This document shows, piece after piece, positions 31,078 to 52,776 of a stretch of DNA of 64,000 bases. The DNA is taken from NCBI RefSeq assembly GCF_021401125.1, contig NZ_JACBFQ010000001.1, forward strand, positions 1 through 64,000. The letters run 5' to 3'. The stretch's first letter is position 1, and the number at the start of each line of letters is the position of its first letter. The DNA is from Xanthobacter sp. NM-59. GTDB taxonomy: Bacteria > Pseudomonadota > Alphaproteobacteria > Rhizobiales > Xanthobacteraceae. A program made the translations under genes and the position numbers. The notes below the pieces were generated by a model. That model had not been told where the DNA came from. It did no database searches and was given only the letters and a program-made list of their open reading frames with translations.

Positions 31078-31120
31078 TGGAGGCCACGGAGGGAATCGAA
31101 CCCCCGTACACGGATTTGCA
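31078..31120 (-). other. attL: 3' fragment of tRNA-Cys
   Basis: Read on the minus strand, from the anticodon loop TGCAAA (GCA anticodon) through ATCCGTGTA, the T-arm GGGGGTTCGATTCCCTC (with minor mispairing) and CGTGGCCTCCA, this is the 3' half of a tRNA-Cys ending in CCA. The sequence on the higher-coordinate side does not give a D-arm or a GGCCACG acceptor strand, so the gene is cut at the anticodon loop. A prophage lies directly on that side. This is what is left at one junction after integration into tRNA-Cys. The restored full tRNA should be at the far end of the prophage, beyond the window. Confidence 0.85.
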
Positions 31121-31166
31121 GGGCGGTGACAGCCATGACGTCCGAACGTACAGTCCGAAAAAGCGT

Positions 31167-31240: not shown

Positions 31241-33727
31241 ATGGACCTAGTGACAAATTCCGTGGCAATCGAGGACGGCAGCCGCGAGGCCACGCTTGAG
31301 CATTTCATGCGTGAGCGCGGCATTGATCGCATGGAAACCCTGGTCTCCAAGGCGGAGGCGAAGGGGCTCGCCAGCGAGACGCCCGGCGCTATGAATGCAA
31401 TCCGGTCCCTCATCCAGCCCATGGCAGATGGCGTGGCCGAACTGTTCGCGGCGGAGCGGGCGCGGAAGATGGGCCGCCCGTCCATCGTCATGTCGAAGAT
31501 CGGCGAGATGGAGCCCGACCTCGTCGCTTACCTAACCATCAAGGAAACCATCAATTATGCGGCGGGGCGCTGCCCGCTGGGCCGTCTGACTCACCACATT
31601 GGCTCGGTGCTTGAAGACGAGGTGCGCATGGCGGTGTTCGATAACGCCGCGCCGAAGCTCTACCGGACCGTTGACCGCGACGTGAAACGCAAATCGTGGG
31701 ACGCGGTTCACGCTGAATTGATCTTCTCCGCTGCCGCCAAAGCGGCGGACATCGAGCTTCCTCGGTGGAGCCGTGCCGACAAGATGCAGGTCGGAACCCG
31801 CCTTGTGGACATCCTCATCGAGCGCACTGGGCTCATGACGGTCTTTGATGTCCATGAACGCAAGAACAGCACCGTCAAGGTGGTCGAGATGACGGAGTTC
31901 GGCCGCCGGTGGATCGCTGACTTCAACGGCAAGGCCGGCCTTCTTCGCCCCTCGCTCACGCCCACCGTCGTCCCTCCCGTCAAGTGGGTGGGGACCACTG
32001 GGGGTGGCTATCTGACGCACGCAATCCGCAGCTTTTGCGTCGTGAAGCGGACCTACCGTTCCCATGTCGAAGCCCTGAAGGCGGCGCCAGGGATGCCCGC
32101 CATCTACCGGGCCATGAACGCCATCCAGGAAACGCCATGGGCGATCAATGGGAAGGTCCTCGACGTCATGCTGGAGGCGGACGAGCGCGGCATCCTCCTT
32201 CCTGGGATGCCCCCGCCCAACCCGAACCCGCTTCCCGAACGGCCGGCCGACATCGACACCAACGAGGCCGCGCGGCGGGCCTGGAAGGAGAAAGCGAAGC
32301 TCGTCTATGAGCAGAACGCGGAGGATGAAGGCCGGCGGCTTGAGCTGGCGCAGCTCCTGACGATAGGGAAGGAGTATCGGGGCGACGCGCAGATTTATTT
32401 TCCGCAACAGCTTGACTTTCGCGGAAGAGTCTACTCCATCCCCAACACGCTGCACCCGCAAGGCTCCGATCGTGGCAAGGCGCTTCTGCACTTCGGCCCC
32501 GGAAAGCCCCTCGGAGATACCGGGCTGCGCTGGCTCGGCATCCACGGCGCCAACGAGTTCGGTGTGGACAAGGTCAGCTTCGACGACCGCGTCTCCTGGG
32601 CCATGGAGCACCGGGAGGCCGCCGCTGCCTGCGCCCGCGATCCGTTCTCGAACCGCTGGTGGACCGAGGCGGACAAGCCTTGGGAGTTCCTGTCGTGGTG
32701 CTTCGAGTTCGGCGCCATCGACTGGAGCAACAGCCCCGAAGCCTTCGTGTCCCACCTTCCCGTCGCCCAGGACGGGAGCTGCAACGGGCTCCAACATTTC
32801 AGCGCCATGCTGCGCGACCCTGTCGGCGGCGCGGCGGTTAACCTCGTGCCCTCCGACGTCCCGCAGGACATCTATCAGCGGGTGGCGGATCGCGCGGTTG
32901 AGCGGTTGGCAAAGGAAGTGGCTGATGCCCGTGCCGAGGGTCGGGAGGACGAGAAGGCTCGCTGGGCTTATGGCTGGCTGGCGTTCGGCCTCAACCGGAA
33001 GATCACCAAGCGCCCGGTCATGGTGCTGCCCTATGGGGGCACGATGACGAGCTGCCTGGAGTACACCCGCGCCGCTGTCCGAGAGCAGATCAAGGATGGA
33101 AAGGGGCACAACTTTGGCGACGAGTTGCCCAAGGCGGAAGCCTATCTGGCCTCCACCATCTGGGCCGCCATCGGCGACGTGGTGGTCGCGGCGAGGGCCG
33201 TTATGTCGTGGCTTCAGAAGGTCGCGCGAGTGGCCGCGAAGGCAGGCGTGCCGCTCCAGTGGACCACCCCAAGCGGCTTCGTGGCGCACCAGGAATACCG
33301 CGACCTGCGCCGCCGCCGCGTCGAGAGCCGGCTGCGCGGGGCCGTGGTCAAGGTCTACTACCAGGAGGACACCGACCAGCTCCACGTCAGCCGGCAGGCC
33401 CTGGGCATCTCGCCCAACTTCGTGCACAGCATGGATGCCAGCGCCATGATGCTCACCATCAACAGGTGCCTTGACGATGGCATCGGTGCCTTCGCCATGA
33501 TCCACGACAGCTATGGGACCTACGCGGCCGACACCGACCGGCTGTCGCAGCACCTGCGCTCGGCCTTCGTGGATATGTATGAAGAGCACGATGTGCTGCG
33601 CGAGTTCCGGGATGCCGTGGTCGCGGCCCTTCCTCCAGAGGCGTCGGAGTTCGACATCCCTCCGCTTCCGCAGATGGGAACCCTCGACCTTCAACGGGTG
33701 CGGGAGTCCGCCTACTTCTTTGCTTAG
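31241..33727 (+). CDS. Phage single-subunit RNA polymerase (T7 gp1-like)
   Basis: An 828-residue DNA-dependent RNA polymerase that would transcribe the middle and late phage genes from its own promoters. Catalytic residues are conserved: Asp511 in VAQDGSCNGLQHFSAML (T7 Asp537), Lys590 and Tyr598 in KITKRPVMVLPYGGT (T7 Lys631, Tyr639), and Asp732 in NFVHSMDASAMML (T7 Asp812). It also has HDSYGT, and a C-terminal aromatic foot (YFFA) like the T7 FAFA end. It is about 55 residues shorter than T7 RNAP. The start at ATG 31241 has no good RBS, so the true start may differ. It is the first gene after attL, so its repression alone could hold lysogeny. Confidence 0.96.
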   Translation: MDLVTNSVAIEDGSREATLEHFMRERGIDRMETLVSKAEAKGLASETPGAMNAIRSLIQPMADGVAELFAAERARKMGRPSIVMSKIGEMEPDLVAYLTIKETINYAAGRCPLGRLTHHIGSVLEDEVRMAVFDNAAPKLYRTVDRDVKRKSWDAVHAELIFSAAAKAADIELPRWSRADKMQVGTRLVDILIERTGLMTVFDVHERKNSTVKVVEMTEFGRRWIADFNGKAGLLRPSLTPTVVPPVKWVGTTGGGYLTHAIRSFCVVKRTYRSHVEALKAAPGMPAIYRAMNAIQETPWAINGKVLDVMLEADERGILLPGMPPPNPNPLPERPADIDTNEAARRAWKEKAKLVYEQNAEDEGRRLELAQLLTIGKEYRGDAQIYFPQQLDFRGRVYSIPNTLHPQGSDRGKALLHFGPGKPLGDTGLRWLGIHGANEFGVDKVSFDDRVSWAMEHREAAAACARDPFSNRWWTEADKPWEFLSWCFEFGAIDWSNSPEAFVSHLPVAQDGSCNGLQHFSAMLRDPVGGAAVNLVPSDVPQDIYQRVADRAVERLAKEVADARAEGREDEKARWAYGWLAFGLNRKITKRPVMVLPYGGTMTSCLEYTRAAVREQIKDGKGHNFGDELPKAEAYLASTIWAAIGDVVVAARAVMSWLQKVARVAAKAGVPLQWTTPSGFVAHQEYRDLRRRRVESRLRGAVVKVYYQEDTDQLHVSRQALGISPNFVHSMDASAMMLTINRCLDDGIGAFAMIHDSYGTYAADTDRLSQHLRSAFVDMYEEHDVLREFRDAVVAALPPEASEFDIPPLPQMGTLDLQRVRESAYFFA

Positions 33728-33760
33728 AAGGTACGTTCAGGCGTAATAAACGCTCGAACG

Positions 33761-33783
33761 GACTTTCCCGCCACTCTTGCCTA
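33761..33783 (+). promoter_or_regulatory. Candidate phage RNA polymerase promoter, copy 1
   Basis: GACTTTCCCGCCACTCT, then T, then GCCTA: 23 bp located 34 bp after the RNA polymerase stop and before the early/replication genes. It recurs with one mismatch at 43780. The length equals that of a T7 promoter. Confidence 0.6.
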
Positions 33784-33801
33784 AATTGGAACATCCAGCC
33801 C

Positions 33802-33993
33802 ATGAACGCTTCTCCTAAGCCTTCCATCACCATCCGCATCGGCGCTGCCCATTGGGACGCCACCTTGGCGGACGGGACCAACTTCGATTTCGCCAGCATG
33901 ACCTCGAACGAGCGCCGGCAGTGGTACCGGGCGTTCGGTGACATCGTCTGGGATACCTACGGCCACAACGTGAAGGGATACCGGCCTCGGTGA
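33802..33993 (+). CDS. Small phage protein, unknown
   Basis: A 63-residue soluble protein starting at ATG 33802. It has a beta-like N-terminal half (SITIRIGAAHWDATLADGTN) and an aromatic, basic C-terminal half (RRQWYRAFGDIVWDTYGHNV). It is the first gene after the candidate phage promoter. Its stop overlaps the GTG of the next gene. No family recognised; an early host-interaction role is possible from position only. Confidence 0.65.
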   Translation: MNASPKPSITIRIGAAHWDATLADGTNFDFASMTSNERRQWYRAFGDIVWDTYGHNVKGYRPR

Positions 33994-34103
33994 CCTTCCT
34001 CGTCATCCTCGGAGCCTGTGTTGTCGGGGCCATCTTCCTCTTCGGCCTCGACTTCCTCTCCGACCTCCTCCTCGACACCTTCAACAACGACAGGAACCCC
34101 TGA
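33990..34103 (+). CDS. Very small membrane protein
   Basis: A 37-residue protein beginning with GTG 33990, which overlaps the previous stop (GTGA). It is one hydrophobic helix (TFLVILGACVVGAIFLFGLD) followed by a short acidic and polar tail. Overlap with neighbours on both sides supports it being real. The family is unknown; a membrane-acting early phage peptide is possible. Confidence 0.55.
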   Translation: MTFLVILGACVVGAIFLFGLDFLSDLLLDTFNNDRNP

Positions 34104-43292: not shown

Positions 43293-43747
43293 CTGGTTGC
43301 GAAGAGTGCGTGTTCGACGAGAAGAAGGCTTTCGAGGAGCCGTGCTGCTACTGCAATTGGGGGATGGGGCCGGGCGACACGCTGGCTCCCCCCACTCGCG
43401 GGGTTCCCAAGGAAGGCCCCTTCGGCGGTGGTGGCGCACGCCCCGGCAAACCTGAGCTGCCTGGGGCTGGCACAGGGAGCCTCCTCGAAGGCATCCTCGC
43501 CAACCGGGCCAAGACCCACGGGGACTTCGGCATCCATGCCGCGTGCACTCAGGACCTGAAGCGCATGGCGAAGAGCTGGATGAAGGCGGCCGGCAAGAAC
43601 GGCCTGGACAACGACAAGCAGGAAGCCCTCGACATGATCTTCCACAAGGTCGGCCGCATCGTCGCCGGTGACCCCGACACCGAGGACCACTGGAGAGACA
43701 TCGCCGGCTACGCCACGCTGGTGGCGGACCGCTGCAAGGTGAGCTAG
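43289..43747 (+). CDS. DUF6378-like phage protein with cysteine-rich N-terminus
   Basis: A 152-residue protein from ATG 43289 (overlap with the exonuclease stop). Residues about 1-25 hold a Cys cluster (CEECVFDEKKAFEEPCCYCN), possibly metal-binding, followed by a Gly/Pro-rich linker. The C-terminal half (about 75-150) reads KTHGDFGIHAACTQDLKRMA, then KQEALDMIFHKVGRIVAGDP and EDHWRDIAGYATL. That is the DUF6378 pattern seen in many podoviruses, thought to be related to helical nucleotide-handling proteins. Activity not established. Confidence 0.75.
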   Translation: MTGCEECVFDEKKAFEEPCCYCNWGMGPGDTLAPPTRGVPKEGPFGGGGARPGKPELPGAGTGSLLEGILANRAKTHGDFGIHAACTQDLKRMAKSWMKAAGKNGLDNDKQEALDMIFHKVGRIVAGDPDTEDHWRDIAGYATLVADRCKVS

Positions 43748-44010
43748 TGGCTCGCATCTCCCGGCCCCCGCTCGGCGAAGACTTTCCCGCCACTCTAGCC
43801 TACAGCGGACCGTCCCCTCTTAAGATACCGCTTCCTGACATCTCCAAGCAACTTCTCGATTATCTTGACGCCGTCTTCAAAGACCGCGTTGACCCCGCAT
43901 GGCGGGACTTCGGAGATGTCCGAGAGGCAATGGGGACGCGCCGCGTCATCGACCACCTTCGCCAGCTCCGCGAAGAACAGGAGAACTCTCATGTGCCTGG
44001 GGGGCAGTAA
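43747..44010 (+). CDS. Small phage protein before the connector gene
   Basis: An 87-residue protein from GTG 43747, overlapping the preceding TAG. The C-terminal 60 residues (KIPLPDISKQLLDYLDAVFK, then RRVIDHLRQLREEQE) resemble a small protein found just before the connector in many T7-like phages. The N-terminal codons coincide with copy 2 of the 23-bp candidate promoter, so the true start may be further in, but no ATG, GTG or TTG follows before the conserved part. Confidence 0.6.
   Translation: MARISRPPLGEDFPATLAYSGPSPLKIPLPDISKQLLDYLDAVFKDRVDPAWRDFGDVREAMGTRRVIDHLRQLREEQENSHVPGGQ
43780..43802 (+). promoter_or_regulatory. Candidate phage RNA polymerase promoter, copy 2
   Basis: GACTTTCCCGCCACTCT, then A, then GCCTA: 22 of 23 bases identical to 33761-33783. 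It sits at the start of the virion gene block, where T7 phages place strong late promoters. Confidence 0.6.
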
Positions 44011-44208: not shown

Positions 44209-45783
44209 TTGGACCAGAAACAGGCCACGGCGGCGCAGCGCTACGCCGCGCTCGAAGGCGGGCGAGACCCGTTCTTAGATCGCGGTCGAGACTGCGCCGC
44301 TCTTACCGTACCTTATCTTCTACCGCCGTCCGGCTTCAGCCCGAACTCCAAGCTCGACACGCCCTTCCAGTCCCTGGGAGCGCGAGGTCAGCGGGTTCTA
44401 AGCTCGAAGCTCCTCCTCTCCCTCTTCCCCCCGAACACCCCGTTCTTTCGCTACCAGATCGACGACCAAGCTCTTCAGCAGCTCACGCAATCAGACCAGA
44501 TGCGCGGGACCGTTGAGCAGGCGCTGTCGTCCCGCGAGAAGGCGGTGCTCGCCGAGATGGAGAGCGCCCTGTTCCGGCCGGCCGCCTTCACCACCCTCCA
44601 GCACCTCATCGTGGTTGGCAACGTTCTCGTCTACGTTCCACCTAAAGGCCGCGTGAGGGTTTTCCGCCTCGACCAATACGTCGTCAAGCGCGACGCCTCC
44701 GGCAACTTGCTGGAGATCGTGGTCAAGGAAAGCGTGGCCCGCGCCGCACTCCCGCGCGAGGCAGCCGCCGCCCTGGCGGACAAGCTCTCGAAGGGCACGC
44801 CGGGAGACGAGCAGAAGGACCTGGACCTGTACACCCGCATCCACCTGGAAGGCGGCATGTGGAGGGTCTATCAGGAAATCTGCGACATCGTGGTCCCCGG
44901 CAGCACGGGCTCCTACACGCCCGATGCCCTGCCGTGGCTCCCTCTGCGCCTGTCGGTGCAGCCGGGTGAGGACTATGGCAGGTCCTATGTCGAGGAGTAC
45001 CTGGGCGACCTGGACAGCCTGGAAGGGCTCGTCGAGGCCATCGTCGAGGGCTCGGCTGCAACCGCTCGCGTCATCTTCGTGGTGTCGCCCAATGGCACCG
45101 TGCAGCTTCGCCAGTTCGCGAAGGCCCGCACCGGCGACACCATCGCCGGATCGGCGGACGACGTCGGCGTCATCCAGACGAACCGTCAGGTTGACCTCTC
45201 CGTAGCCCGTCAGCAGGCCACCGACATCGCCCAGTCGCTGTCCTATGCCTTCATGCTCAACGCTGCGGTGCAGCGCTCCGGCGAGCGCGTGACGGCCGAG
45301 GAAATCCGCTACATGGCCTCGGAGCTGGATGACGCCCTTGGCGGTGTCTACACGCTCCTCGGCGCGGAGTTTCAGCTTCCCGTCGTGCGTCTGTTCGAGC
45401 GGAGGATGGAGAAGAACCGGCAGGTTCCCCCGCTCCCCCACGACCTCGTCCAGCCCCAGATTGTCACCGGCCTCCAGGCCATCGGCCGGGGCTACGACCA
45501 ACAGAACCTCAAGCTCTTCGTCGCCGACATCCTCCAGGTCCTCGGGCCGGAACTCGCCATGAAGTTCCTCAACCCGCAGGAGTTCCTGAAGCGCTCGGCC
45601 GCGTCCTACGGCATCGACCCTGGCGGCCTCCTGGCCTCCGACGAGCAGCTCGCCCAGCAGGAACAGCAGGCGCAGATGATGCAGCTCGTCCAGCAGCTCG
45701 GCCCCCAGGCCCTCCAGCAGCTCGGTGGCATGGCGCAGACGCAGATGAAGATCGACAACCCCCCTCCCGCAAAGGCCCAATGA
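44209..45783 (+). CDS. Head-tail connector (portal) protein (T7 gp8-like)
   Basis: A 524-residue portal subunit that forms the ring through which DNA enters the capsid and the tail attaches. It starts at TTG 44209. Features are ERYxAL-like AQRYAALEGGRDPFLDRGRD at the N-terminus, PYLLPPSG and LGARGQRVLSSKLLLSLFPP, YGRSYVEEYLGDLDSLEGLV in the middle and the Gln-rich C-terminal tail (DEQLAQQEQQAQMMQLVQQL). Length and order match T7 gp8 (536 residues). Followed with a 4-nt overlap by a small gene and then the scaffold. Confidence 0.93.
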   Translation: MDQKQATAAQRYAALEGGRDPFLDRGRDCAALTVPYLLPPSGFSPNSKLDTPFQSLGARGQRVLSSKLLLSLFPPNTPFFRYQIDDQALQQLTQSDQMRGTVEQALSSREKAVLAEMESALFRPAAFTTLQHLIVVGNVLVYVPPKGRVRVFRLDQYVVKRDASGNLLEIVVKESVARAALPREAAAALADKLSKGTPGDEQKDLDLYTRIHLEGGMWRVYQEICDIVVPGSTGSYTPDALPWLPLRLSVQPGEDYGRSYVEEYLGDLDSLEGLVEAIVEGSAATARVIFVVSPNGTVQLRQFAKARTGDTIAGSADDVGVIQTNRQVDLSVARQQATDIAQSLSYAFMLNAAVQRSGERVTAEEIRYMASELDDALGGVYTLLGAEFQLPVVRLFERRMEKNRQVPPLPHDLVQPQIVTGLQAIGRGYDQQNLKLFVADILQVLGPELAMKFLNPQEFLKRSAASYGIDPGGLLASDEQLAQQEQQAQMMQLVQQLGPQALQQLGGMAQTQMKIDNPPPAKAQ

Positions 45784-48179: not shown

Positions 48180-49115
48180 GTGACCAATACCACTGTCAGC
48201 CGCCTCGGCCAGATCAACGGCGCAGGCGACGTTCAGGCCCTCTTCCTCAAGCTCTTCTCTGGTGAGGTGCTCACCGAGTTCGAGCGCATCAACATCTTCA
48301 AGGGCCTCCACTTCGTCCGCCAGATCAGCAACGGCAAGTCCGCCCAGTTCCCGCTGATCGGCCGGGCTACCTCCGGCTATCACACGCCCGGCAACTGGAT
48401 CGACGGCAGCTCCATCGACCACGCCGAGACGATCATCACCGTGGACGACCTCCTCCAGTCGAACGTGTTCATCGCGAACGTGGACGAGGCCATGAACCAC
48501 TATGACGTGCGCGGCCCCTACTCGAAGGAGCTGGGTCAGGCCCTGGCGTTCGCCTATGACAGCAACGTCGCCCGCGTCATCACCCTTGCCGCGCGTGCCG
48601 CATCCCCGCTGACCGGCCGTCCCGGCGGCTCCCGGATCACCGACGCCGCGATGGCGACCGACCCGGCGAAGCTGGAAGCGGCCCTGTTCACCGCCGCCCA
48701 GACCCTGGACGAGAAGAACGTCGGCCTCACCGACACCCAGGCGGTGTTCCGCCCGGCGCAGTATTATCTCCTCGCCCAGCGCGACCGTCTGGTGGACACC
48801 ACCCTCGGCGCTCGCGGTTCTGTCGCGACGGGCCGCGTGGACACCATCGCCGGCTTCCCCATCGTGAAGTCGAACCACGTCCCGTCCACCAACGTGACGA
48901 CCGGCCCGGCCAAGTACCGGGGCGACTTCCGCACCACCGTGGGCCTCATCTTCAACAAGATGGCCGCCGGCACCGTGCAGCTCATGGATATGTCCATGGA
49001 GAGCGAATACGAAATTCGCCGCCAGGGCACGTTCTTCATCGCCAAGTACCTCGTGGGTCACGGCATTCTGCGGCCCGACTGCGCGATTGAGGTCGCGACC
49101 GGCGCGGTGGCGTAA
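48180..49115 (+). CDS. Major capsid protein (T7 gp10-like)
   Basis: A 311-residue HK97-fold shell protein from GTG 48180 with a well-placed AGGAA. Typical T7-like features are SRLGQINGAGDVQALFLKLF, FSGEVLTEFERINIFKGLHF, VRQISNGKSAQFPLIGRATS, YHTPGNWIDG and VDDLLQSNVFIANVDEAMNH. The C-terminus RRQGTFFIAKYLVGHGILRP is also conserved. Slightly shorter than T7 gp10A (345). No slippery sequence for a gp10B-type frameshift is apparent. A strong terminator follows. Confidence 0.95.
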   Translation: MTNTTVSRLGQINGAGDVQALFLKLFSGEVLTEFERINIFKGLHFVRQISNGKSAQFPLIGRATSGYHTPGNWIDGSSIDHAETIITVDDLLQSNVFIANVDEAMNHYDVRGPYSKELGQALAFAYDSNVARVITLAARAASPLTGRPGGSRITDAAMATDPAKLEAALFTAAQTLDEKNVGLTDTQAVFRPAQYYLLAQRDRLVDTTLGARGSVATGRVDTIAGFPIVKSNHVPSTNVTTGPAKYRGDFRTTVGLIFNKMAAGTVQLMDMSMESEYEIRRQGTFFIAKYLVGHGILRPDCAIEVATGAVA

Positions 49116-49769: not shown

Positions 49770-52246
49770 TCACGGGCGAGCTTCCGGGGCTCTACAACGG
49801 CGTCTCCCAGCAGGCCGTCGCCATGCGCCTCCCCACCCAGGGGGAGCTTCAGGAGAACTTTGATGCCACCCTCGTGGCTGGCCTGAAGAAGCGCCCGCCG
49901 TTCGAGCACGTCGCGAACATCCCCACCTCGGGCGGTGCCACGTTCATGCACCTCATCAACCGCGACGAGGCCGAGCGCTACGTGCTCGTGATCCGGGACG
50001 GGAAGCTTTTTGTGTATGGTTTCGACGGCACCGCCCGCGCCGTCAGCGCTCCTTCCGGTTTCAGCTATTTGTCCGGTGCGGGAACCAGCTACGCGGCCCT
50101 GACGGTGGCCGACTACACCATCATCGTGAACCAGAAGAAGAAGGTGCTGGCGGCGGATGGGAGGTTCCCAACCCGTCCGTACGAAGCCCTCGTGAATGTG
50201 GTGCAAGGAAACTATTCCAAGCCCTACACGGTGGACATCAACGGCGTCCGGGTTGCTCAATACGTAACTCCAGGCGGGGGGCTGTCCGGCTCCGCAAGCT
50301 GCGCTTCGACGGAGAACATTGCCCAGCTCCTGATTGACGGGACGATGGCTGCGGCAGGGGGCGTTTATTACAACGGTATGTCCCCCAACGGGACCGAGAA
50401 CCGCGTCATCTGGGGCATCTCTGAGGACGTGAACCAAATGGTGGACAATGCCGGGTGGGTCGCGAAGATCATGTCCAAGCGCGGCATTGATGCTGCGAAT
50501 GGGTGGTCGGTGACGCGATACACCTCCTCCATCCATCTCCAGCACCCGACCAGCGACTTCGCGATTGCGGTCGCGGACGGGTACAACGGCAACGCCATGA
50601 AGGTGGTGAAGGGGCAGACGCAGAGGTTTTCCGACCTGCCCAACTTCGCGCCCACCGGGTACACCGTCGAAATCACCGGGACGGAAGGAAACGCAGCCGA
50701 CAGCTATTGGGTCGTCGCCCAGAAGGACGGGGACAACGACGGCAACTCCCAAGTCCTCTGGAAGGAGACCTGCAAGCCCGGCTCCCGCAAGGGCCTGGAC
50801 GCCTCGACCATGCCGCACATCCTGGTGCGCGAGGCGGACGGTAGCTTCACCTTCAAGCCAGCATCCTGGAACGAGCGTGAGTGCGGTGACGACGAGGACG
50901 TCAACCCGGACCCGTCCTTTGTGGGCGGGACCATCCAGGACGTCTTCTTCCACCACAACCGGCTCGGCTTCCTCTCCGACGAGAACGTCATACTCTCGCG
51001 CTCTGGGGACTTCTTCAACTTCTACCGGACCACGGCCACCGCCTACCTGGATGACGACCCCATCGACGTTGCCGCCAGCCACGTCAAGGTGTCGATCATG
51101 CGGCATGTAGTGCCCACCCAGGACAACCTCATCCTATTCTCGGATGGCACCCAGTTCCGCCTCTCCGGCAACGAGACGCTGACCCCCAAGTCGGTATCCC
51201 TTCGGCCGATGACAGAGTTCTCCTCGTCCCCCACCGTGCCTCCGGTGGCCGTTGGCAAGAGCGTCTTCTTCATCGCCGACAGCACCGCCAGCCGGGACTA
51301 CGCGGCGGTCTACGACTTCTTCTACGACAACAACAGCGAGACCGGAGACGCTGACAACGTCACCGCCCACACCCCGAGCTACATCCCAACCGGCGTCACC
51401 CAGATCATCGGGAGCCCGGACGAGAGCTGCCTCGCCGTCCTGACCGATGGAGACCCTTCGGCGGTCTACATCCATCGCTTCTATTGGGCGGGGCAGAACA
51501 AGGTACAGTCCGCCTGGATGCGCTGGACGACCGCAGGGACCATCCTTCGCGCCGCCTTCATCAAGTCCGACATCTACGCCCTGGTGGCCCGGCCCGGCGG
51601 GACATGCCTGGAGAAGCTCCGCATGAGCACCTCCGCGCTCGACGCCGACCACGGCTACCTCATCCACCTGGACCGGCGCGTGACCTCGGACCAGCTCGCG
51701 TCCCCGGTGTATAAGTCCTCATCCGAGGTCACCACCTACACGTTGCCTTTCGTTCCCCAGGACGGCATCATAGCCGTGTCGTCCGGGCGGATGCTCGACG
51801 TCTCCTCCATCGGAGGTGTGTCGGTGTCCCTCAAGGGGGACACGCGGGGGAAGCTGGTCTATTTTGGCTACCCCTATGAGAGCCGGTACCGCTTCTCGAC
51901 GCTCTTTGCTCGGGGCCAGTCCGCCGATGGAAGCTCCATTGCGAAGATCAACGGTCGCCTCCAGCTCCACCACCTCGCTTTGTCGTTCGACAAAACCGGG
52001 TACTTCCGGGTTGAGGTGACGCCTGACGGCCGTTCCCTCCGGTCCGAGGAATACCACGGCCGAGTGCTTGGGGACTCCCAGCACGTCTTCGGCACCGTGA
52101 AGCCCGAGAACCGGCGCTGGAGCGTGCCCATCATGAGCCGCAATGACAGGGTCATCATCGACCTTGTCAACGATAGCTGGCTTCCAAGTTCATTCATCTC
52201 CGCTTCCTGGCGGGGTATGTGGAACCAGAACAACCTGGAGAGATAG
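49760..52246 (+). CDS. Tail tubular protein B (T7 gp12-like nozzle)
   Basis: An 828-residue nozzle protein; length close to T7 gp12 (794). GTG 49760. Features are LPGLYNGVSQQAVAMRLPTQ and ALKKRPPFEHVA-like text near the N-terminus, HHNRLGFLSDENVILSRSGD and FFNFYRTTATAYLDDDPIDV in the middle, and the beta-propeller-like LILFSDGTQFRLSGNETLTP. The C-terminus has RDNRVIIDLVNDS-like MSRNDRVIIDLVNDSWLPSS. It forms the distal tube that carries the tail fibres. Confidence 0.94.
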   Translation: MGLITGELPGLYNGVSQQAVAMRLPTQGELQENFDATLVAGLKKRPPFEHVANIPTSGGATFMHLINRDEAERYVLVIRDGKLFVYGFDGTARAVSAPSGFSYLSGAGTSYAALTVADYTIIVNQKKKVLAADGRFPTRPYEALVNVVQGNYSKPYTVDINGVRVAQYVTPGGGLSGSASCASTENIAQLLIDGTMAAAGGVYYNGMSPNGTENRVIWGISEDVNQMVDNAGWVAKIMSKRGIDAANGWSVTRYTSSIHLQHPTSDFAIAVADGYNGNAMKVVKGQTQRFSDLPNFAPTGYTVEITGTEGNAADSYWVVAQKDGDNDGNSQVLWKETCKPGSRKGLDASTMPHILVREADGSFTFKPASWNERECGDDEDVNPDPSFVGGTIQDVFFHHNRLGFLSDENVILSRSGDFFNFYRTTATAYLDDDPIDVAASHVKVSIMRHVVPTQDNLILFSDGTQFRLSGNETLTPKSVSLRPMTEFSSSPTVPPVAVGKSVFFIADSTASRDYAAVYDFFYDNNSETGDADNVTAHTPSYIPTGVTQIIGSPDESCLAVLTDGDPSAVYIHRFYWAGQNKVQSAWMRWTTAGTILRAAFIKSDIYALVARPGGTCLEKLRMSTSALDADHGYLIHLDRRVTSDQLASPVYKSSSEVTTYTLPFVPQDGIIAVSSGRMLDVSSIGGVSVSLKGDTRGKLVYFGYPYESRYRFSTLFARGQSADGSSIAKINGRLQLHHLALSFDKTGYFRVEVTPDGRSLRSEEYHGRVLGDSQHVFGTVKPENRRWSVPIMSRNDRVIIDLVNDSWLPSSFISASWRGMWNQNNLER

Positions 52247-52248
52247 AC

Positions 52249-52776
52249 GTGGGATACATCGTCAAGGCCACTGAAGAACACGCCCGAGCCCTGGCGCCCA
52301 TCCTGCGGCCGGCTGACCGGGCCGAGGTCGAGGCACTCACCGGCCGTGAGCCGTTGGGGGTGCTTCTGGAAATGGTCCGGGAGCACGACGCCTGGGCGAT
52401 GTATTCCGACGCCGGGGAGCTGGCGGGAATGTGCGGCGTGGACCCGATCTATCCGCCAACCCCCGACTACCCCGGCGTTCTCAAGACCGGAACCCCGAAG
52501 CTCGGGCAGCCGTGGATGATGGGCAGCGACGTGCTCGACAAGCGTCCCATCGAGTTCCTCCGCGCCAGCCGCAAGTGGGTGGAGGAACAGCAGGCCCGGT
52601 ATGAGACCCTGAACAACGTTGTTGATGCCCGCAATGCGAAGCACATTCAGTGGCTCAAGTGGCTGGGTTTCGAGGTCGCCAAGGAGCCCATCCTGTGGGG
52701 TTCGAAGCTCCTCCCGTTCTACCCATTTGAAAGGACCAGAAGCACGCCATGTGCGTTGCCGCTCTTCCCCTCCTGA
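52249..52776 (+). CDS. Internal virion-assembly protein, GNAT-like (T7 gp13-like)
   Basis: A 175-residue protein from GTG 52249 with GGAGA upstream. Pattern of the DUF2833/gp13 group, which looks like a degenerate GNAT acetyltransferase fold: GYIVKATEEHARALAPILRP, DAWAMYSDAGELAGMCGVDP, GQPWMMGSDVL and ARNAKHIQWLKWLGFEV. In T7, gp13 is needed for proper internal core assembly. Its end overlaps gp14 by 28 nt. Confidence 0.85.
   Translation: MGYIVKATEEHARALAPILRPADRAEVEALTGREPLGVLLEMVREHDAWAMYSDAGELAGMCGVDPIYPPTPDYPGVLKTGTPKLGQPWMMGSDVLDKRPIEFLRASRKWVEEQQARYETLNNVVDARNAKHIQWLKWLGFEVAKEPILWGSKLLPFYPFERTRSTPCALPLFPS

Follow-up and report, generated by a model that had tools for sequence, protein, structure and literature searches.

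A T7-like prophage and its repeated 23-bp motif

The window analysed here is a 64,000-nucleotide stretch of DNA, positions 1-64000 of contig C11, from a source genome of 4,956,536 bp in 36 contigs; coordinates above 64000 refer to the same contig beyond the window. A prophage of about 41.9 kb occupies C11 31105-73041. It encodes a T7-type RNA polymerase, SSB, an endonuclease, a primase-helicase, a DNA polymerase and an exonuclease, as well as portal, scaffold, endolysin, capsid, tail protein, terminase, a MarR-like protein and an integrase. The T7 gene order, the phage-encoded RNA polymerase, and the presence of an integrase and att sites identify this as a temperate prophage of the Autographiviridae type. 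Its relevant features are as follows.

31105..31121, + strand: left att repeat of the prophage (CGTACACGGATTTGCAG, 17 bp); the right copy is at contig 73025-73041, in tRNA-Cys
31241..33727, + strand: T7-type single-subunit RNA polymerase, 828 aa (phrog_414, E 1.2e-256; T7 RNAP 1aro, E 4.7e-130)
33761..33783, + strand: motif copy 1, putative promoter of the early/replication block, with its predicted +1 at the G at 33779
43747..44010, + strand: conserved small ORF, 87 aa, overlapping copy 2 (tblastn matches in several relatives)
43780..43802, + strand: motif copy 2, putative promoter before the virion block, overlapping codons of the small conserved ORF
44209..45783, + strand: portal (head-tail connector) gene, downstream of copy 2 (phrog_449, E 1.3e-170)
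48180..49115, + strand: major capsid gene (phrog_267, E 5.9e-83), with a 79%-identical homologue in a separate element
52219..52776, + strand: gene with a 73%-identical homologue in the same element (contig 367835-368338), whose copy matches phrog_308 (internal virion protein)
Contig 67943-67965, + strand: motif copy 3, followed by a class II signal at 68611
Contig 71500-71892: MarR-like HTH gene, beside the integrase gene
Contig 71879-72922: prophage integrase
Contig 371106-371128, + strand: motif copy 4, within the element at 366024-380727

The polymerase aligns with T7 RNA polymerase across residues 16-828 and keeps all of the T7 residues D537, K631, Y639, H811 and D812, as do all 28 aligned relatives, T7 and LUZ100. 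With its catalytic residues intact, the enzyme appears from its sequence to be active and is the presumed reader of the motif. No second match to it exists anywhere in the genome besides the prophage gene. At specificity-loop positions 746, 748, 756 and 758 (T7 numbering) it carries R, E, V and a gap, whereas T7 has R, N, R and Q, a divergence that would be expected if promoter letters and specificity loop had changed together. A polymerase that is 99% identical occurs in Xanthobacter aminoxidans, where copy 1 is also present, and in genome G398 all three prophage copies of the motif are identical letter for letter.

The stretch between the polymerase stop and copy 1 (33728-33760) likely forms a small hairpin (CGTTC...GAACG, GCGT...ACGC; pairing judged by eye). 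Short stem-loops seem to follow the polymerase gene directly in several relatives too, and Pasto has further occurrences of such a sequence at several positions.

An earlier, sequence-only reading of the window had reported a pair of 23-mers at 33761 and 43780. Both are found exactly there, on the + strand, and agree at 22 of 23 bases. When up to three mismatches are permitted, these two are the only matches in the window, compared with none in 100 dinucleotide shuffles, and the next-best window site has seven mismatches to copy 2. The accompanying remark that no other full copy was seen holds within the window, but contig C11 carries two further copies beyond it, at 67943 and 371106, with two mismatches and one mismatch to the pattern, respectively. 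At the same threshold the whole genome contains four copies, all on the + strand of C11, and a backwards-read control gives none. A weaker partial echo that had been pointed out, CCTACAGCG, is a bare 9-mer at 43799 and 38336; by our estimate, a pair of occurrences in 64 kb is close to chance, and it is given no weight.

The placement described for the first two copies is borne out: copy 1 starts 34 bp past the polymerase stop (33727), and copy 2 heads the virion block, 429 bp upstream of the start of the portal ORF (44209). Copy 3 starts 19 bp past the terminase stop. Copies 1 and 3 lie between phage genes, and copy 2 is inside the 87-aa ORF, which matches no Pfam or PHROG family and has tblastn E-values down to 1.6e-12 outside a near-identical Xanthobacter prophage. 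Given this overlap, one could imagine that the copies resemble each other because they encode a shared peptide, DFPATLA, particularly as the single T/A difference is synonymous in the conserved frame of copy 2. Copies 1 and 3, however, lie downstream of the polymerase and terminase genes, respectively, and show no less similarity than copy 2, and relatives carry other motifs at the equivalent places. We therefore give coding constraint practically no credence, because copies 1 and 3 lie between the phage genes.

Evidence for a promoter of the phage polymerase

The 23-mer had been described as unlike the T7 consensus. This is true of its whole length, in that copy 2 and the T7 consensus agree at only 9 of 23 positions, but not of the CACTnTAG core, which reads CACTCTAG here and CACTATAG in T7: seven of the nine matching positions fall in CACT-n-TAG. 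Moreover, the motif shares the 23-bp scale and the -17 to +6 layout of T7-class promoters, with A/T-rich positions -16 to -13, TA at -2/-1, and G at +1. Copy 1 has CTTT at -16 to -13 and T instead of A at -1, where copies 2 through 4 have A. As is characteristic of T7-class promoters, a conserved site of about 17-23 bp is repeated in the orientation of the genes, and sites follow both the RNA polymerase gene and the terminase gene.

The same layout emerges when the motifs of 14 genomes, our own included, are aligned. The most constant positions are A at -16 (11/14), T at -14 (13/14), A at -13 (11/14), C at -6 and at -5 (11/14 each), T at -2 (13/14), A at -1 (11/14), G at +1 (12/14) and C at +2 (12/14), although the motifs were brought into register by eye, with the -12 to -1 core as the anchor, and the counts lean towards that register. 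T7 promoters have the same layout as these 14 motifs. The alignment takes in G413, which is positive at two places only, and leaves out G418 and G419 (near-duplicates of G417) as well as G426 and G434 (register not obvious).

The sequence-only reading had proposed scanning the complete prophage and its relatives for the 23-mer. In addition to the third prophage copy, this comparison reveals that 16 of 27 relatives carry a motif of their own at three places. The relatives comprise all 25 IMG/VR records longer than 40 kb among 80 listed polymerase matches, plus Mesorhizobium phage Lo5R7ANS and Rhizobium phage Pasto (L026, a copy of Lo5R7ANS, was left out). Their polymerases are 37-49% identical to the prophage enzyme. 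In each genome, the 90 bp past the polymerase gene was compared with 900 bp before the portal match and with 300 bp past the terminase gene, and a motif was counted at three places when its copies differed by at most four mismatches and their offset was equal within 3 bp. With the prophage included, 17 of 28 genomes have one motif at all three places with equal offset. Control windows were drawn from the same loci and had no 25-mer in common with the compared stretches. For 18-mers with up to three mismatches, the polymerase and terminase stretches match in 19 of 28 genomes (controls, 14/1680), and the polymerase and longer portal stretches match in 21 of 28 (controls, 98/1680). Seventeen of the 19 terminase-stretch matches lie at the motif; those of G413 and G427 do not. 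The three-place test failed in 11 of the 28 genomes, among which G413, G414, G415, G432 and G433 show a match between the polymerase and portal stretches only. Some near relatives (e.g. G417-G419) have one motif in common.

Lo5R7ANS has exactly three copies within four mismatches in 45.7 kb, and Pasto has three within two mismatches, followed by two at four. Copies of a prophage's own motif outside that prophage were sought in three genomes: our own, G398 and Mesorhizobium loti LU (G265). In the 6.4 Mb of the latter, the three exact copies of its motif are all located on the contig with the prophage, and its backwards-read control gives 14 matches at up to two mismatches. An 18-mer search with one mismatch found one scattered match in each of six other genomes among 397 of the order, and the backwards-read control found matches in more genomes. 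With two mismatches, matches appear in four other genomes among 14 of the genus; of these matches, three exact ones in G398 are the sole matches at syntenic places.

The copies, their positions, the three-place architecture conserved in relatives, the T7-type layout and the intact polymerase can all be read directly from the DNA. On this basis we conclude, with a probability of roughly 0.9, that the motif serves the phage-encoded single-subunit RNA polymerase as a promoter of the T7 class; we infer that this enzyme starts RNA synthesis at the G of CT(A/T)G. Transcription from copy 1 would serve the early/replication block and that from copy 2 the virion block, and copy 3, like phiOR in T7, would direct transcription into the packaging junction, starting where the terminase gene ends. 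Counting against this conclusion are the 11 of 28 genomes that are negative at three places, the 9/23 match to T7, and the position of copy 2 in a coding ORF.

A conventional sigma-70 promoter at the motif finds no support, in that scans revealed no sigma-70-like site in 33600-34100 around copy 1 and none overlapping copy 3 or copy 4. It is also very unlikely that the repeat is not a promoter but an operator bound by a phage regulator such as the MarR-like protein. This idea draws on the MarR-like HTH gene adjoining the integrase, and on MarR repression at a phage promoter, which the LUZ100 authors propose in the available text of their report (PMC10134795). Nevertheless, all four copies point in the same direction, the motif is no palindrome by eye, and it is located where LUZ100 and T7 promoters are mapped or annotated, with an equal layout. 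A regulator could, of course, bind on top of the promoter.

A second signal follows copy 3. In T7 the sequence ATCTGTT starts at base 161, just after the 160-bp terminal repeat, and in Pasto it starts at base 272, where the annotated repeat spans 1-271. In the available text of PMC11617373, ATCTGTT and the U run that follows it are described as a class II terminator of T7 polymerase that is also found at the concatemer junction. The related sequence CTATCTGTCGTTTT is present in Lo5R7ANS, in three IMG/VR relatives, and in the prophage at 68611, 668 bp past copy 3. In 117.7 kb past the terminase genes of relatives, (C/T)TATCTGT occurs six times forward and never in reverse, in 5 of 20 records; Lo5R7ANS has two reverse matches. 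The hexamer ATCTGT shows no strand bias past terminase genes (seven forward and seven reverse in 32 kb), and no class II signal lies close to the terminal repeats of LUZ100.

Because copy 3 precedes this presumed concatemer-junction signal, the motif might instead be a packaging, replication or recombination site at which transcription is incidental. We consider this extremely unlikely, as copies 1 and 2 head gene blocks in the manner of promoters. T7 promoters near the genome ends also serve replication and packaging, and such a function would be a second role of the promoter rather than an alternative to it.

The fourth motif copy and its element

Copy 4 lies outside the prophage, in an element flanked at 366024 and 380710 by an 18-bp repeat of the 3' end of tRNA-Phe (14.7 kb from att to att). 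Besides copy 4, its main features are as follows.

Contig 366126-367832: element integrase, ORF open
Contig 367835-368338: phrog_308-matching gene, 73% identical to the prophage gene at 52219..52776
Contig 371617-372738: orphan gene, 373 aa
Contig 373397-374338: element capsid gene, 79% identical to that of the prophage

The element also has genes for Bro-N and pRha regulators, for a resolvase, and for AP2 and DUF3102 proteins; the family search covered part of its ORFs, with 374874-375386, which lies across a locus border, standing outside it. The capsid gene is 2.3 kb downstream of copy 4 on the same strand. A degenerate second promoter copy (370985-371016, 72% identical) lies 112 bp upstream of copy 4, and T7 likewise has two tandem promoters past its polymerase gene. 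A polymerase gene is absent from the element, and none of the ORFs scanned was recognised as a replication or terminase gene. Similarly, no relative of the prophage terminase, portal or primase was found among 146 ORFs of at least 40 aa at E-values up to 1e-4. A defence scan of ten element ORFs gave weak matches alone (E >0.005). The T7 primary origin has an AT-rich tract after its promoter; no such tract is seen downstream of copy 4, where the next 60 bp are 33% AT.

Two observations concern the element's fine structure. Seven copies of GGAGCCTCT lie between or within its small genes (contig 371656-377873), each closing a short stem-loop of the CTCCAC...GTGGAG kind (stems judged by eye), and the prophage has one copy; these stem-loops are possibly RNA processing sites. 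In addition, the two capsid genes are unevenly similar, with 73-79% DNA identity over the first 150 codons and 81-87% thereafter, which may reflect recombination between prophage and element. At 37 capsid columns that are invariant in 20 other sequences, the element departs at four and the prophage at three, a result with no clear bearing on head size.

The presence of a further motif copy in a separate mobile element with a capsid variant suggests a parasitic element that is switched on by the phage polymerase. Specifically, the sequence makes it probable that the element is a 14.7-kb satellite with a borrowed promoter, which would be transcribed solely while the helper prophage produces its polymerase. 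As in satellites generally, an integrase and flanking att repeats accompany an incomplete virion gene set, and cis signals are held in common with the helper. One of these signals is promoter copy 4. The other is a candidate class II signal, CTATCTGTTTTTTA, which occurs once in the element, at 379770, and is weak evidence for a helper-shared signal on its own: of 1000 shuffled versions of the element, 42 contain the 8-mer, and one contains it when four or more of the next six positions must be T. This frequency of the 8-mer, the lack of strand bias of ATCTGT, the finding of the element in one genome only, and the negative searches for an empty site and for relatives of its orphan and integrase (described below) count against the satellite. 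It can be proposed more tentatively that a single helper polymerase would run the satellite's whole life by turning on its genes, possibly priming its replication in the manner of the T7 primary origin, and halting at the junction for packaging, perhaps into smaller heads.

Most likely, then, the element is a satellite, and the main rival is a decayed or recombinant second T7-like prophage whose promoter is a leftover. The latter is a real, if minority, possibility: the element's capsid, phrog_308 and DUF3102 genes are related to those of the prophage, it is found in one genome alone, and its 112-bp upstream promoter copy is degenerate. Against decay, two att copies flank the element, its integrase ORF is open, and copy 4 itself is intact at 22 of 23 positions. 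The capsid and phrog_308 ORFs are likewise intact, and their Ka/Ks values against the prophage genes (0.41 and 0.28, respectively, by a crude Nei-Gojobori estimate) are below 1, so that both appear to be kept as coding genes. Furthermore, the order of genes in the element (phrog_308, promoter, capsid, DUF3102) differs from that in the prophage (DUF3102, promoter 2, capsid, phrog_308), and hence simple deletion does not explain the arrangement.

No second example of such an element came to light. Of 26 IMG/VR loci with a capsid gene, none could be recognised as a satellite: two or more other structural genes of T7 type are present in 24, and a single one, tail tube B, in L152 and L154. In viral_contigs no relatives were found for either the element integrase or the 373-aa orphan, and among 149 genomes of the family the orphan occurs in our own only. 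A capsid homologue was found in seven genomes among 397 of the order and in three among 385 of the class (own genome included in both), and the five other genomes of the order with a clear capsid match also have the polymerase, with the weak matches in G304 and G624 and the locus in G874 standing outside this tally. An empty integration site was sought with the 400 bp to the right of attR (380728-381127); nothing matching this stretch was found in 13 other genomes of the genus, so that attR may border on another strain-specific island. Among the IMG/VR records, a 78,980-bp sequence (IMGVR 3300046665_000193) has two portals and two terminases of T7 type, and represents either two prophages side by side or a joined assembly.

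Comparison with known phages and satellites

Copy 1 corresponds in position to phi1.1A of T7 and phi2 of LUZ100, and copy 3 corresponds to T7 phiOR and LUZ100 phi8. The T7 promoters phi1.1A and phiOR have their +1 at polymerase stop +26 and terminase stop +99, respectively, whereas the predicted +1 positions of copies 1 and 3 are 52 and 37 bp past the polymerase and terminase stops. The prophage would have three promoters, compared with the 17 phage promoters of T7, and the two polymerases differ at specificity-loop residues 748, 756 and 758.

According to the available text of PMC10134795, the promoters of the Pseudomonas phage LUZ100 were mapped from ONT-cappable-seq data, and three of its eight promoters were recovered with the motif. 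In LUZ100, phi2 and phi8 are 50-bp features that start 21 bp and 46 bp past the polymerase and terminase genes. Like the prophage, LUZ100 is temperate and T7-like and has promoters just past these two genes; unlike the prophage, it has a motif of type ATTACCACACAG and one promoter upstream of the polymerase gene itself (PMC10134795, same text); no such copy is present in the prophage.

The closest named phages by polymerase, Lo5R7ANS (44%) and Pasto (42%), resemble the prophage in having three good copies each at the same three places. Their motif letters differ, and the pairs may be orthogonal. Together, these promoters and the differing specificity loops form a set of naturally diverged polymerase-promoter pairs. 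Since 16 of 27 relatives have their own motif and the loops differ as well, the recognition rules can be tested directly and candidate orthogonal expression parts can be chosen.

Satellites of the cfPICI type carry their own capsid and packaging module. The element does have a capsid, but no relative of the prophage portal or terminase was found among its 146 ORFs (an unrelated packaging gene could escape such a search), and assignment to the cfPICI is therefore not favored. Assignment to the PICMI is contradicted by its tRNA-Phe site and capsid gene, given that the available text of PMC10803314 defines these satellites as integrated next to fis and as having no capsid-remodelling genes. The satellite families covered in the available text of PMC11389934 are P4-like, PICI, cfPICI, PLE, PICMI, VEIME and tycheposon, and no paper in the literature searched deals, judging by its title or the opening lines of its abstract, with a satellite of a T7-like phage.

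If correct, the satellite reading would add temperate T7-like phages to the helpers in this field and would add a mechanism of control, namely the borrowing of a promoter for the helper's own RNA polymerase. It would also predict that other satellites can be found by searching host genomes for a prophage promoter outside the prophage. Like P4-like satellites, PICI, cfPICI, PLE and PICMI, the element is small and integrated, has its own integrase, and shares its cell with a larger prophage; it is about one third of that prophage's size and carries a related capsid gene. It is unlike those satellites in that its presumed helper is T7-like, its control would operate via the helper's RNA polymerase promoter, it has a whole major capsid variant but, as far as found, no relative of the prophage terminase, portal or primase, and its integration site is tRNA-Phe.
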